Virus record (IMG/VR): IMGVR_UViG_3300046466_000088
Coordinates: 1 to 57,240 of that record
Strand: one strand, 5' to 3'
Source of the DNA: a virus
Length of the DNA stretch: 57,240 bases
Shown here: piece by piece, positions 40,723 through 45,226 of the stretch
Layout of the letters: each line of letters begins with the position of its first letter
Numbering within the stretch: the first letter of the stretch is position 1
The notes under the pieces: generated by a model
Databases searched by the model: none
What the model was told of the DNA's origin: nothing
Seen by the model: only the letters and a program-made list of their open reading frames with translations
Program-made: the position numbers and the translations under genes

Positions 40723-41042
40723 GTTTAGTTAATTTAACTGACTCAGCTAAGAAACATTTAAAAAAATTAGCACAAGACAATAATAAAAAATATGTTCGTC
40801 TAGAAGTTAAGGGTGGTGGTTGTGCAGGTTTTAAATATGATTGGTCATTTGATGACTACATACAAGACAGTGATGACTTTATAGAGTTAGATGGCTTTAC
40901 ATTATTAATAGATAAATCTAGTTTATTTTATTTAATGGGAATGACTATTGAATATAAGAAAGAAATATTTGGTAGCTTCTTAGAACTAAAGAATCCTAAT
41001 GCAACAAGTAGTTGTGGATGTGGAGAAAGTTTTGGAGTATGA
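40719..41042 (+). CDS. iscA: A-type iron-sulfur carrier (IscA/HesB)
   Basis: 107 residues with all three ligand cysteines at the same numbers as E. coli IscA: C35 (GGGCAGFKYDW), C99 and C101 (SSCGCGESF). IscA proteins hold Fe or an Fe-S cluster and pass it to target enzymes in the cytoplasm. It is coupled to the preceding gene (ATGA) and overlaps iscU downstream. Intact and of normal length, so likely functional. Carried at the end of the late operon. Confidence 0.93.
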   Translation: MSLVNLTDSAKKHLKKLAQDNNKKYVRLEVKGGGCAGFKYDWSFDDYIQDSDDFIELDGFTLLIDKSSLFYLMGMTIEYKKEIFGSFLELKNPNATSSCGCGESFGV

Positions 41043-41434
41043 CATATAGTAAAGAATTATTAGAACATTATGAGAACCCTAGAAATGTAGGGTCAATGGA
41101 TAAAGAAGATAAAGATGTAGGTACTGGACTTGTTGGAGCACCTGCCTGTGGTGACGTAATGAAGTTACAAATTAAAGTAGGTGATGAAGGTGTTATAAAA
41201 GATGCTAAGTTTAAAACATTTGGATGTGGTTCAGCTATTGCATCTAGTTCATTGATTACTGAATGGGTTAAGGGTAAGAAGATTGATGAAGCTAATAAGA
41301 TAAAGAACACAGAGATAGCTAATCATTTAGCTTTACCTCCAGTAAAAATACATTGTTCAGTTCTAGCTGAAGACGCAATCAAAGCTGCAATCTCAAACTA
41401 TAAAAAAAAGAATGAAAGTAAAAACTTATTGTAG
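41039..41434 (+). CDS. iscU: Iron-sulfur cluster scaffold IscU
   Basis: 131 residues from ATG 41039, overlapping the iscA stop (ATGA). Every key position keeps E. coli IscU numbering: C37 and D39 (GAPACGDVMKLQI), C63 (TFGCGSAIASSS), LPPVK at 99-103 (HscA contact), H105 and C106. Overall likeness to bacterial IscU is very high by eye, pointing to capture from a host. It would assemble clusters on sulfur delivered by host IscS. No iscS, hscA or fdx here. Confidence 0.95.
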   Translation: MTYSKELLEHYENPRNVGSMDKEDKDVGTGLVGAPACGDVMKLQIKVGDEGVIKDAKFKTFGCGSAIASSSLITEWVKGKKIDEANKIKNTEIANHLALPPVKIHCSVLAEDAIKAAISNYKKKNESKNLL

Positions 41435-41559: not shown

Positions 41560-41597
41560 AAAATACCCCTAGTTATTAAGTTAGCTAGGGGTTTTTT
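41560..41597. terminator. Bidirectional terminator between converging blocks
   Basis: Stem CCCCTAG (41566-41572) and CTAGGGG (41585-41591) with an A-run on the left and TTTTTT on the right. It can end both the rightward late transcript and the leftward transcript that ends at 41600. Confidence 0.9.
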
Positions 41598-41599
41598 AT

Positions 41600-41794
41600 T
41601 TATTTAATTTCTTTTTTTATTGAAGCGATATCTTCTTCTACTTGTTTTATTTCGTTAATATAATGGTCTCTCATTTCTTTAAGACTTTCTAATTTATTTT
41701 TATAGTTCTTCATTCTATATTCATTATAGACTTTATCAGATATGACCATTAAATTTGGTCTCATCATATTAAACATGTCATTTACTAATAACAT
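41600..41794 (-). CDS. Coiled-coil hypothetical protein (64 aa)
   Basis: Behind AAAGGAGAAAATATT. The C-terminal 40 residues are a Lys/Glu coiled coil (KNKLESLKEMRDHYINEIKQ). Last gene of the leftward block, 115 bases after pqqA. Unknown function; not a PqqD-like protein as far as I can see. Confidence 0.7.
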   Translation of the reverse strand: MLLVNDMFNMMRPNLMVISDKVYNEYRMKNYKNKLESLKEMRDHYINEIKQVEEDIASIKKEIK

Positions 41795-41908: not shown

Positions 41909-41989
41909 TTACTTTTCAGCACAAGCATATGAATTGATTTCTAAACCCACAGAAATTTCTGCGATAATAGGTTTTGTCCATACAGTCAT
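41909..41989 (-). CDS. pqqA: PqqA-like peptide, precursor of coenzyme PQQ (26 aa)
   Basis: The peptide starts MTVWTKPIIAEISVG and ends LEINSYACAEK. It has the PqqA signature: W and KP near the N-terminus, EIxxG, then E-x3-Y (E17, Y21), the Glu and Tyr that PqqE cross-links to begin PQQ synthesis. It closely resembles alphaproteobacterial PqqA (Methylobacterium type: W..PI..EI.VG.E..SY..AE). A perfect AAGGAG lies just before the ATG, inside the end of the holin gene. No pqqB, C, D or E is present, so host enzymes would be needed. Easily missed because of its length. Confidence 0.85.
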   Translation of the reverse strand: MTVWTKPIIAEISVGLEINSYACAEK

Positions 41990-41990
41990 A

Positions 41991-42362
41991 TTATTTCTCC
42001 TTCCATGTTTTAATTCCTTTCTCAGCACCTCTGCTTATGATATAGCCACCAATACCAATCTGTAATAAATCAAATAACTTCATGATAACTTGGTCAGATA
42101 AATTCTCTGGGTGTACACCAAACCAATACATAAACAAAAGCATCAAGAAAGATAGCATTGTTAAAGGTCTCCAATTACGTTGTAACCAACCTTCACCTTT
42201 AGCTTCAGCAACCACTACAGATGCAGCAGCTTTTTCTATATCTGCTGAGTGCGTAACTAGTGCTTTATTTAATTCTGATTGAGCCTTTGCTTGAGCAGCT
42301 TTATCAGGAATTATTCTATCAATTACTTTACCTAATATAGGTGCAATCATTGGTAATAACAT
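41991..42362 (-). CDS. Holin, GTA/3TM type (123 aa)
   Basis: Matches the pattern of the GTA_holin_3TM family: amphipathic N-terminus (APILGKVIDRIIPDKAAQAK), then KGEGWLQRNWRPLTMLSFLM, a membrane helix, and a final helix (LLQIGIGGYIISRGAEK). It would open the inner membrane so the M15 endolysin can reach the wall. Normal length for the family. AGGAGAAATATT precedes the ATG; pqqA follows directly, so both are likely made together. Confidence 0.85.
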   Translation of the reverse strand: MLLPMIAPILGKVIDRIIPDKAAQAKAQSELNKALVTHSADIEKAAASVVVAEAKGEGWLQRNWRPLTMLSFLMLLFMYWFGVHPENLSDQVIMKLFDLLQIGIGGYIISRGAEKGIKTWKEK

Positions 42363-42402: not shown

Positions 42403-42978
42403 TTAAAAGAAAAGAGTTAAATTATTATTTTTGTTCATCCTACATTTACCTTCAAGGCAAACTAAGTCGTTGGTTTCATTAATCTTTTCATAAGTCTTAT
42501 GAAGAGGACTTGTATAAAAATAGAATGAACCTTCCTGCATAGGTATATAATATTTTTTAGTAGCAGGTCTATTGTAATAAAATAAACCTGAACTAGAATT
42601 ACCTACATGTATAGGTAACACAAAATAGCTATTAGCATTATGGTTTAGATTATAATACGTTCCATCCTCTTGTATAATTTCAAAAGCAGGTGATGAATAT
42701 GTATCATCAAATGATAATTCCTCTACATATAAATTATTTAACATCTGTTTTATTTTAAATAATAAAGATGGAAACTTTTCAAATACAATAGGATTGTTTG
42801 TAAGACATTTATTTTTATAAGTATCTTCAGTATCTGTATCTTCTTTTCCTGAACCTAATGATAATCTATTAGAATATTTTGACCAAGAATCTTTTAAATC
42901 CAATACTGATTTATAGATTGTTTTACAATCTGTATCTTCTATAAAATCTTTAATCGTTATTGAAGAGAGTATTTTCAT
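42403..42978 (-). CDS. Hypothetical protein after glycosyltransferase genes (191 aa)
   Basis: ATG 42978 (MKILSSITIKDFIEDTD) is chosen: it overlaps the end of the 758-residue gene and has AAAGGAAC upstream. Beta-rich C-terminal half (SYFVLPIHVGNSSSGLFYYN then YIPMQEGSFYFYTSPLHKTY) faintly recalls cupin or 2OG-oxygenase folds, but a full metal triad is not visible. Coupling to the glycosyltransferase suggests work in the same pathway. Confidence 0.65.
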   Translation of the reverse strand: MKILSSITIKDFIEDTDCKTIYKSVLDLKDSWSKYSNRLSLGSGKEDTDTEDTYKNKCLTNNPIVFEKFPSLLFKIKQMLNNLYVEELSFDDTYSSPAFEIIQEDGTYYNLNHNANSYFVLPIHVGNSSSGLFYYNRPATKKYYIPMQEGSFYFYTSPLHKTYEKINETNDLVCLEGKCRMNKNNNLTLFF

Positions 42979-45226
42979 ATTTAGGATGTTCCTTTCTACC
43001 ACCAGTTTTCCACAACTCAGAAACAAGAGTACCCTCACCATATAGTTCCATATGCATGTCAACATCTTGTCTTTGAAATAATTTCTCACAGTCTTGTGCC
43101 ATAGCTAGTAGCTCACCTGTAGTCCAGAACTTTTTATTATTTGTAGTAACGTGTAAGTATTTACCTTTACCTGTTGAACTATCAACTGCATCTTTATCTT
43201 TAGGTTCATCCATTGAACAATCAAAACCATATAGTTTAAAGTTTCTAAATCCTAACGTATGTCCAACACTAATGGCTCTCATAGCTGCACAAGTACCACC
43301 AGTTAATAGAACTGTATCATCAGGTATACCTAAGTCTTTTGGTATAGTAACTTTATTATCTGTATTCTGTTCAACAATAGCATCTGAGTAAGCATTCCAA
43401 CCTATTATCTTAGCACTCTTATCTTTTAAGAAATCTACAACTGAGGTATCAGTCATAGATGATACAAAGAATATAGTCTCTTTAGGTATCTCTTTAAATA
43501 ATTCTTTACGAACAATACCATGTGTACTTGTACCTTCAATAGGTCTAGGGTCAAGTATGTTACATGCCCAAGGAACTATACCTTCTTTCAAAAGCATAGG
43601 TAGTGAATGTTTAACACACATGATTTTGTCTTTAGTTGATTTAAGATAGTCTCTATAATTTAAAAAGGAACTACCACCTGAAACTATATTAAGTATCTCT
43701 CCATGTGGTCTTGACTTAGTTAGCCATTTATTAATTGACTGCACATTATTTTTTATATTGTTTCTAATATAATCAGTAGGCATACAGTCTTTTGGTTTAA
43801 CAATTATTGGAACGTGATTGAAACTTTCAGGGAGTTTATCAAGACTAGATTTATGAAGAACGACAGCAAGATGAGTAACACCACCACCTGCCACTGGGTC
43901 ACTAGATGGAAGAACTTTCCTGCGTAGCTTTTTATCAAGGGCATCAAATACTTTATTAGTTCCTTTATGTTCATCAACAACTTCCTTTCCTTTTTCATCC
44001 TTAGTAAAGTAATCATCAAACACGACAACAGGTAAATCTTTTGTCATATTATAATCGTGTTGAACAGTATCAAAGCTATGTCCACCATCAAGATAAGCTA
44101 TATCAAAATTCTTTTGTTGCGTTAGTGTTACTTTAGTATCACCTTTAACTAATTTAAATTCAAAGTCTTTGTTCATTTTTTCTTTAACAAAAGTTTTAAA
44201 TTCTTTTAGTCTATTACTAACTGCTTTATAAAGATTGTGTGGTTTAGTATTCATTTCAGTTGCATCAGTAAATTCATCTGCATCTTCAAATAAATCATAA
44301 CCTTCATAGTAAACTTTATCTACGTTGTCAAAAGCTGCCAGTGCCATTTCAATAGCACGACCACCATTCCATGTACCTGTCTCCAGTATTCTTGAAAACT
44401 TGTAATGTCTGATGACATCTGCCAATTGTTTGTACCTCTTTGGACCAACGACATCAGGTGTGGTCTTATCAGATAACAAGTCCTTCCTATTACCCTTGAA
44501 GTGTTCAAAGTAATCTGCCAAAGGTGAATTATTAAACGCATCTAAACCTCTCACGTCTGGTGTTAAACTATGTTTTTTTAAACCATGTGCACCATAGATA
44601 TTAAATAATCTTTCAAAGATAAATCCATCATGCCATTCTCTATATGAAAGAACTTCATGACTATTATAAAGACCTCTCATATCTCCCAGTAAATCAAGGG
44701 GTGGGATAGTGTTAAGATTAAAAGCCATGAAAGATGTTTCACTATAGTCCACATCCTTCCTACCTAAGTGGACGAGTTCAGAACCTAGGGGAATGATTCC
44801 AAACAAGTCTTGTTTATTAACAGGCTTTCTAAGGATAATGTCAGCATCTAACCAAACTACCCACCCTACTTGTACACTCTTTTCTACCAACTTGAAGGAG
44901 AAGTCAGTCAGAGCATACACTTTGTGACACCATTTAATGGCATCTAATCTCCAGTTATAAGGCATCTTACCAGCTTCAGTACCATCATGAAGTTTCATTT
45001 CTTCACGATAGGTAATCATTTCATCTACCTTATTAAGATTTCTAAATGTTATCTTGTCTGTTTTAGGAAACTCTTTTACCTGCTCATCAGTAAAGTCATG
45101 ATAGTAGGCAGTTAAATGTAAATCGTCAGCCATATATTTTATAACTGAGTCAATCATTTTCTTTGCATAAGTTTCCCATCCTTTAGGATTAAAGGACGTA
45201 ACGATATTTATTGTGTCTTTACTCAT
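42950..45226 (-). CDS. Fusion: glycosyltransferase, SAM methyltransferase, DUF115/MAF-like domain (758 aa)
   Basis: Three parts. Residues 1-250: glycosyltransferase with a DxD motif D127-A-D129 (GWVVWLDADIIL). Residues 262-460: class I SAM methyltransferase (ILETGTWNGGRAIEMA at 280-295; AYLDGGHSFDTVQHDY at 377-392), like sugar-modifying Methyltransf_24. Residues 508-745: DUF115/MAF_flag10-like fold (ILNIVSGGSSF at 511-521; LTGGTCAAMRAISVGHTLGF at 641-660), a family linked to flagellin and nonulosonic-acid glycosylation. Likely adds and methylates a surface sugar on virion or cell. No frameshift. Confidence 0.82.
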   Translation of the reverse strand: MSKDTINIVTSFNPKGWETYAKKMIDSVIKYMADDLHLTAYYHDFTDEQVKEFPKTDKITFRNLNKVDEMITYREEMKLHDGTEAGKMPYNWRLDAIKWCHKVYALTDFSFKLVEKSVQVGWVVWLDADIILRKPVNKQDLFGIIPLGSELVHLGRKDVDYSETSFMAFNLNTIPPLDLLGDMRGLYNSHEVLSYREWHDGFIFERLFNIYGAHGLKKHSLTPDVRGLDAFNNSPLADYFEHFKGNRKDLLSDKTTPDVVGPKRYKQLADVIRHYKFSRILETGTWNGGRAIEMALAAFDNVDKVYYEGYDLFEDADEFTDATEMNTKPHNLYKAVSNRLKEFKTFVKEKMNKDFEFKLVKGDTKVTLTQQKNFDIAYLDGGHSFDTVQHDYNMTKDLPVVVFDDYFTKDEKGKEVVDEHKGTNKVFDALDKKLRRKVLPSSDPVAGGGVTHLAVVLHKSSLDKLPESFNHVPIIVKPKDCMPTDYIRNNIKNNVQSINKWLTKSRPHGEILNIVSGGSSFLNYRDYLKSTKDKIMCVKHSLPMLLKEGIVPWACNILDPRPIEGTSTHGIVRKELFKEIPKETIFFVSSMTDTSVVDFLKDKSAKIIGWNAYSDAIVEQNTDNKVTIPKDLGIPDDTVLLTGGTCAAMRAISVGHTLGFRNFKLYGFDCSMDEPKDKDAVDSSTGKGKYLHVTTNNKKFWTTGELLAMAQDCEKLFQRQDVDMHMELYGEGTLVSELWKTGGRKEHPKYENTLFNND

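Follow-up and report, generated by a model that had tools for sequence, protein, structure and literature searches.

The window analysed here is the whole of an IMG/VR virus record (57,240 bases, 33.7% G+C), in which no terminal repeats were found. Its plus strand carries the terminase, portal, virion and tail protein genes, and its minus strand carries the polymerase, primase-helicase, ribonucleotide reductase and holin genes. The window is a genuine phage genome that carries a host-like metabolic gene, pqqA, which lies next to the holin gene. The features of this region are as follows.

41909..41989, minus strand: pqqA, the 26-residue precursor peptide of pyrroloquinoline quinone (PQQ), matched by PF08042, TIGR02107 and a bacterial-only profile; Glu17 and Tyr21 are expected to be cross-linked
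41991..42362, minus strand: holin with three transmembrane segments, gene-transfer-agent holin type (PHROG 3427, E 2.9e-25; PF11351, E 2.6e-10), immediately upstream of pqqA
41600..41794, minus strand: 64-residue open frame between pqqA and the terminator, weakly XhlA-like (PF10779, E 0.0049, score 17.5 against a cut-off of 34.7)
41565..41592, no strand assigned: intrinsic-terminator-like hairpin that separates the converging plus- and minus-strand transcripts and is conserved in relatives

The pqqA frame runs from 41989 to 41909 on the minus strand and consists of 26 codons followed by TAA, giving the peptide MTVWTKPIIAEISVGLEINSYACAEK. An earlier, sequence-only reading of this DNA had placed a 26-codon pqqA at 41909-41989; its coordinates and length hold, and its strand has to be corrected, since a plus-strand reading of the same interval contains stops and is ruled out. 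The ribosome-binding site that it described is present as an AAGGAG motif 5' of the ATG. The ATG follows the stop codon of the holin (gene at 42362..41991) by 1 nt and the ribosome-binding site lies within the 3' end of the holin gene, from which it is inferred that translation of pqqA probably uses the holin transcript and would then be late. The hairpin probably ends the pqqA transcript.

The frame exceeds the cut-offs of both PqqA families, Pfam PF08042 (E 9.8e-8, 32.3 bits against 21.1) and TIGR02107 (E 6.7e-10, 38.6 bits against 20), so that the PqqA identity proposed earlier passes the profile check. A profile built from bacterial PqqA only scores the frame at 57.0 bits, while no other frame of the window exceeds 5.6 and the maximum over 100 shuffled windows is 12.6. 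The frame is short, stands alone and has a ribosome-binding site; its translation is itself inferred. On the strength of these profile matches, the coding of PqqA by 41989..41909 is confirmed as a sequence assignment. The peptide contains the E-x3-Y pair, Glu17 and Tyr21, as had been pointed out. No relatives of PqqA were found in the PDB by sequence.

PqqE, PqqD and a PQQ alcohol dehydrogenase were searched for in the window and none was found. The earlier statement that no pqqB-E lies in the genome is therefore borne out by profile searches for PqqE and PqqD only, PqqB and PqqC being outside any separate search. A complete phage PQQ pathway, with phage-encoded pqqE and pqqD, is not present. 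A NifU-like Fe-S cluster assembly protein (41012-41434, plus strand; PHROG 8429, E 1.8e-40) is a second possible metabolic gene, located beside the lysis region. A 758-residue protein that combines MptE-like and methyltransferase domains (42950-45226, minus strand) adjoins a glycosyltransferase-8-like frame.

Conservation and distribution of viral pqqA

Close relatives of the locus were anchored on the holin (at least 89% holin identity, with enough sequence past the holin), so that they were not selected for PqqA. The pqqA gene is kept at the same offset in 23 of the 24 holin-anchored contigs. Residues 11-26 (EISVGLEINSYACAEK), a 16-residue core, are invariant across 13 distinct DNA alleles, which vary silently in core codons 12, 14, 18, 19 and 20; the residues that do vary are 2, 3, 5, 6, 8, 9 and 10. 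Glu and Tyr are retained in all of these relatives. The alignment with L261, a near-full-length relative of 56.7 kb with a 95% identical holin, shows a clean loss of both pqqA and the 64-codon frame there, with the same terminator located directly past the holin, and no PqqA was found elsewhere in that record. This loss indicates that pqqA is an accessory cassette and is not essential.

The viral collection was also searched with degenerate DNA patterns for PqqA. A first pattern matched at least 120 stretches, and short PqqA frames accounted for 119 among the 120 matches listed. A second pattern, of the EINxYACAE type, returned PqqA in 119/119 cases with more than 70 distinct peptides, and ribosome-binding sites precede 117 of these 119. 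When the Glu and Tyr codons were left free in the pattern, both residues were present in 262/262 viral matches (a few contigs are counted twice among them), so the loss of either residue, which would have spoken against the earlier reading, does not occur among these matches. The pN/pS ratio is 0.25 for the alphaproteobacterial type and 0.16 for the methylophile type, and 0.14 and 0.10, respectively, in the core; all four values are somewhat reduced by the positions that the patterns fix. Viral pqqA is under strong purifying selection.

Overall, pqqA is present in hundreds of viral contigs, where it is usually unannotated. Exactly one PqqA was found in 47 of the 48 viral records searched whole; PqqE over cut-off was found in none of the 48, and PqqD over cut-off in none of 49 records, the window included. 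A viral record of 356,312 bases (L032) also has a single pqqA. The neighbours of pqqA differ among the viral loci and include holin, portal, GroES co-chaperonin, exonuclease, recombinase and other genes, which makes several acquisitions or relocations of pqqA probable. In many other loci a holin family is found no more than 80 bp from pqqA. About 32 phage loci of the alphaproteobacterial type (L291:4813-5253 and about 31 others) have a gene for a GroES-like co-chaperonin near pqqA. In one of the 48 viral records, of 72 kb (L050 / L454, G074:C1:34049-35731), a PQQ-dependent methanol dehydrogenase gene is located about 6 kb from pqqA and is flanked by frames that match phage protein families; this arrangement resembles that of the Lake Baikal methylotroph viruses. 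A nearby frame of 946 residues matches PHROG 7800, which is annotated DmsA.

Three PqqA queries, two of which were gamma-proteobacterial PqqA sequences, found the same 12 entries among 50,697 catalogued phage records. Nine of the 12 are isolates from Methylophilales/Methylophilaceae (Venkman, P19250A, MEP301, MEP401, MEP402 and four Melnitz records) and three are environmental assemblies. The isolates belong to different phage types, including one Zobellviridae and one Kyanoviridae member; Venkman and P19250A are described as siphoviruses in PMC8163748. No gene is annotated at pqqA in Venkman, P19250A, MEP301, MEP401 or MEP402, and only an antisense hypothetical frame is annotated at the site in Melnitz-1. 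The available portions of the papers describing the pqqA-bearing Methylophilales isolates contain no mention of PQQ as a phage gene. Klebsiella and Pseudomonas are hosts able to make PQQ, and many of their phages are catalogued; the three queries gave no PqqA match in them. The alphaproteobacterial type was not detected among the catalogued phages by tblastn with the 26-residue peptide of the window and an EINCYACAE-type peptide, and a megablast search with 20 kb of the window gave no match there.

Bacterial relatives and the presumed host

The nearest bacterial PqqA sequences are those of HIMB59-family genomes obtained from single cells and metagenomes; this family was centred on a genome titled HIMB59-MED-G10. 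From the Trp on, 22 of 23 residues are identical to the phage peptide, at a DNA identity of 84%. HIMB59 corresponds to the AEGEAN-169 clade according to the title of PMC10308909. The pqqA gene is present in 31 of 32 incomplete HIMB59-family genomes, with 78 copies in total and 1-5 per genome. Several of the copies inspected are located away from the pqq operon, among them copies close to recQ, typA or a TonB receptor gene, and these orphan copies indicate that the presumed host clade itself multiplies pqqA alone. The genomes concerned (G001-G037) are streamlined, at about 1.2 Mb, and up to five dispersed copies occur in them.

The host had been expected to provide the remaining pqq genes, and pqqABCDE does occur in the family with the nearest PqqA. 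PqqE scores over its cut-off in 16 of the 22 incomplete genomes searched, a set that includes a few from outside the HIMB59 family, and in one HIMB59-family genome PqqB, C, D and E all score over cut-off behind pqqA, giving a complete operon. A PQQ methanol/ethanol dehydrogenase scores over cut-off in 20 of the 32 genomes, typically a few kb from pqqE on the same contig, and the nearest PDB relative of the copy tested is the lanthanide-dependent XoxF. Both the pathway and a XoxF-type enzyme are thus present in the clade. The earlier reading withstood all three of its own refuting checks, the last of them on a host clade that is inferred, and its interpretation is supported. The main text of two HIMB59/AEGEAN-169 papers contains no mention of PQQ.

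The phage probably infects marine alphaproteobacteria of the HIMB59/AEGEAN-169 clade, an assignment inferred from the peptide alone. It is plausible and unproven, because a search of the 32 HIMB59-family genomes with the window terminase did not find an infecting or integrated relative. The DNA polymerase of the window is closest (~50-51%) to those of the Pelagibacter phages HTVC115P, HTVC104P and HTVC103P, and the cultured phages nearest by this protein (~51%) infect Pelagibacter HTCC7211, which counts against a HIMB59 host. Two other candidate hosts, 'Maricaulis' L128 and 'Flavobacteriaceae' L178, were rejected, as their phage-type pqqA alleles lie on small contigs that are probably mis-binned phage; no PqqE over cut-off was found in the L128 genome.

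Proposed role and comparison with known systems

PqqA is consumed in PQQ synthesis, one peptide for each PQQ, and the PqqB-E enzymes are reusable. The phage pqqA is interpreted as an auxiliary metabolic gene that supplies this consumed substrate to host PQQ synthesis, with a probability of roughly 0.78; the expression of the gene, the processing of the peptide by host PqqD/PqqE and the benefit to the phage are inferred, as is the identity of the host. Since one peptide is destroyed per PQQ, a host whose transcription has been taken over by the phage would be depleted of PqqA sooner than of the reusable enzymes, and a phage copy of pqqA alone would be the cheapest repair. The phage would bring only the consumable substrate and the host PqqB-E enzymes would do the rest, joining the Glu and Tyr side chains of a functional phage peptide and cutting them out to give PQQ. 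PQQ maintained in this way may keep periplasmic XoxF-type methanol/alcohol oxidation and the electron supply going until lysis.

The supply of substrate is supported by the occurrence of pqqA alone, without partner genes, by the fixed core and Glu/Tyr pair, by the multiplication of pqqA in the host clade and by the conversion of PqqA to PQQ in extract. Purified PqqA fed to a Gluconobacter extract was 70-80% converted to PQQ, as stated in PMC9851590, which cites Wang et al. 2021; the same source mentions five pqqA copies in a methylotroph. Late, holin-linked expression, itself an inference, would leave limited time for a benefit and counts against this model.

The sequence-only reading had raised a decoy for PqqD/PqqE as the alternative. 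Binding of the peptide to these proteins would then obstruct or redirect PQQ synthesis in the host, for example so that SAM or reducing power is spared or respiration is stopped. Excess PqqA could occupy PqqD, and the linkage of pqqA to a lysis gene in the window would suit such a role; however, a dead-end form would be expected to have given up one of the two reactive residues, and neither Glu nor Tyr is ever lost among the 262 viral peptides. The core also shows no variation and is almost the same as in the host peptide, the viral record with its own PQQ dehydrogenase argues for supply, and genomes of the presumed host family carry several extra pqqA copies themselves. A decoy is accordingly disfavoured and considered unlikely.

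The one-base coupling to the holin in the window clade, together with the holins found near pqqA in many other loci, could instead point to a repurposed peptide, for example a holin regulator or an antiholin partner, for which PQQ is irrelevant. Other phages, however, have pqqA near portal, GroES, exonuclease or recombinase genes and not near a holin, the conservation follows the PqqA core and its catalytic pair, and wherever a host is known or inferred its type corresponds to the type of the phage peptide, leaving repurposing quite improbable. A recently captured host gene that drifts in the phage without a function is very doubtful and largely refuted by the strong purifying selection on pN/pS: PqqA is tiny and easily picked up and was lost in L261, yet the window copy differs by 16% in DNA from the closest host copy while encoding nearly the same peptide, the same gene is kept in many gene contexts with ribosome-binding sites in 117/119, and the frames are intact in all sampled relatives. 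Bacterial contamination can be dismissed even though some IMG/VR contigs are short, as it is refuted by the completely sequenced phage isolates that carry pqqA, by the terminase, portal, tail, polymerase and holin genes of the window and by the searches of viral records, none of which gave a pqqE or pqqD match over cut-off.

With supply of the substrate as the preferred reading, a broader proposal is favoured with less confidence, namely that phages of PQQ-dependent hosts (Methylophilales, HIMB59/AEGEAN-169 and related marine alphaproteobacteria) repeatedly and independently took up a single orphan pqqA and almost always kept it. Their strategy would be to supply a consumed cofactor precursor and not an enzyme. 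The gene would have been missed because its frame is too short for annotation, and the pqqA type could predict hosts, so that the peptide may link uncultured phages to them. The near invisibility of pqqA to gene finders accounts for the cultured Methylophilales phages that carry it unannotated, and since such phage-host pairs are already in laboratories, the idea is directly testable. If phage PqqA does feed PQQ synthesis in the host, then the cofactor behind lanthanide-dependent methanol/alcohol oxidation is under direct viral influence in streamlined bacteria that are abundant in the ocean. As an auxiliary gene pqqA is unusual, its product being a consumed peptide, used at one copy per cofactor, and not an enzyme.

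The earlier remark that there is no established phage PQQ system was too strong, as viral PqqA had been reported twice and the kind is therefore already known. In the Lake Baikal population VP_266 (Coutinho et al. 2020, PMC7678222), PqqA was found on a viral contig and was proposed to aid the PQQ supply for methanol dehydrogenase. That case is a single contig of a predicted methylotroph virus from freshwater, and those populations also encoded methanol dehydrogenase, whereas the window has a likely HIMB59 host and no dehydrogenase and is accompanied by a survey of breadth and selection. A 2026 study of reservoir sediments (PMC13188868) reported virus-encoded pqqA, pqqD and pqqE and interpreted them as phosphate solubilisation; no analysis of the PqqA peptide was seen in the available part of that study. 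Earlier reports of the breadth, of evidence for selection, of pqqA in cultured Methylophilales phages or of the HIMB59 link were not found, which is weak evidence since only open-licence literature was covered. The breadth of phage pqqA and the host link look new.

The window peptide shares with bacterial PqqA (PF08042 / TIGR02107) its length, the W..(K)P...E..VG.E...Y core, the ribosome-binding site and the Glu/Tyr pair, and is nearly identical to the HIMB59-clade peptide; it differs in being phage-borne, in following a holin gene and in the absence of pqqD/pqqE. The orphan pqqA genes of methylotrophs and HIMB59-family genomes are likewise extra copies outside the pqq operon that provide substrate only, but they are chromosomal, whereas the extra copy of the window is delivered by a phage. 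Cyanophage psbA, which encodes the D1 protein, is a phage copy of a fast-turnover host component that needs replacement. It encodes a photosystem protein subunit, whereas pqqA encodes a consumed cofactor precursor; the two are not homologous and the likeness is one of analogy only.
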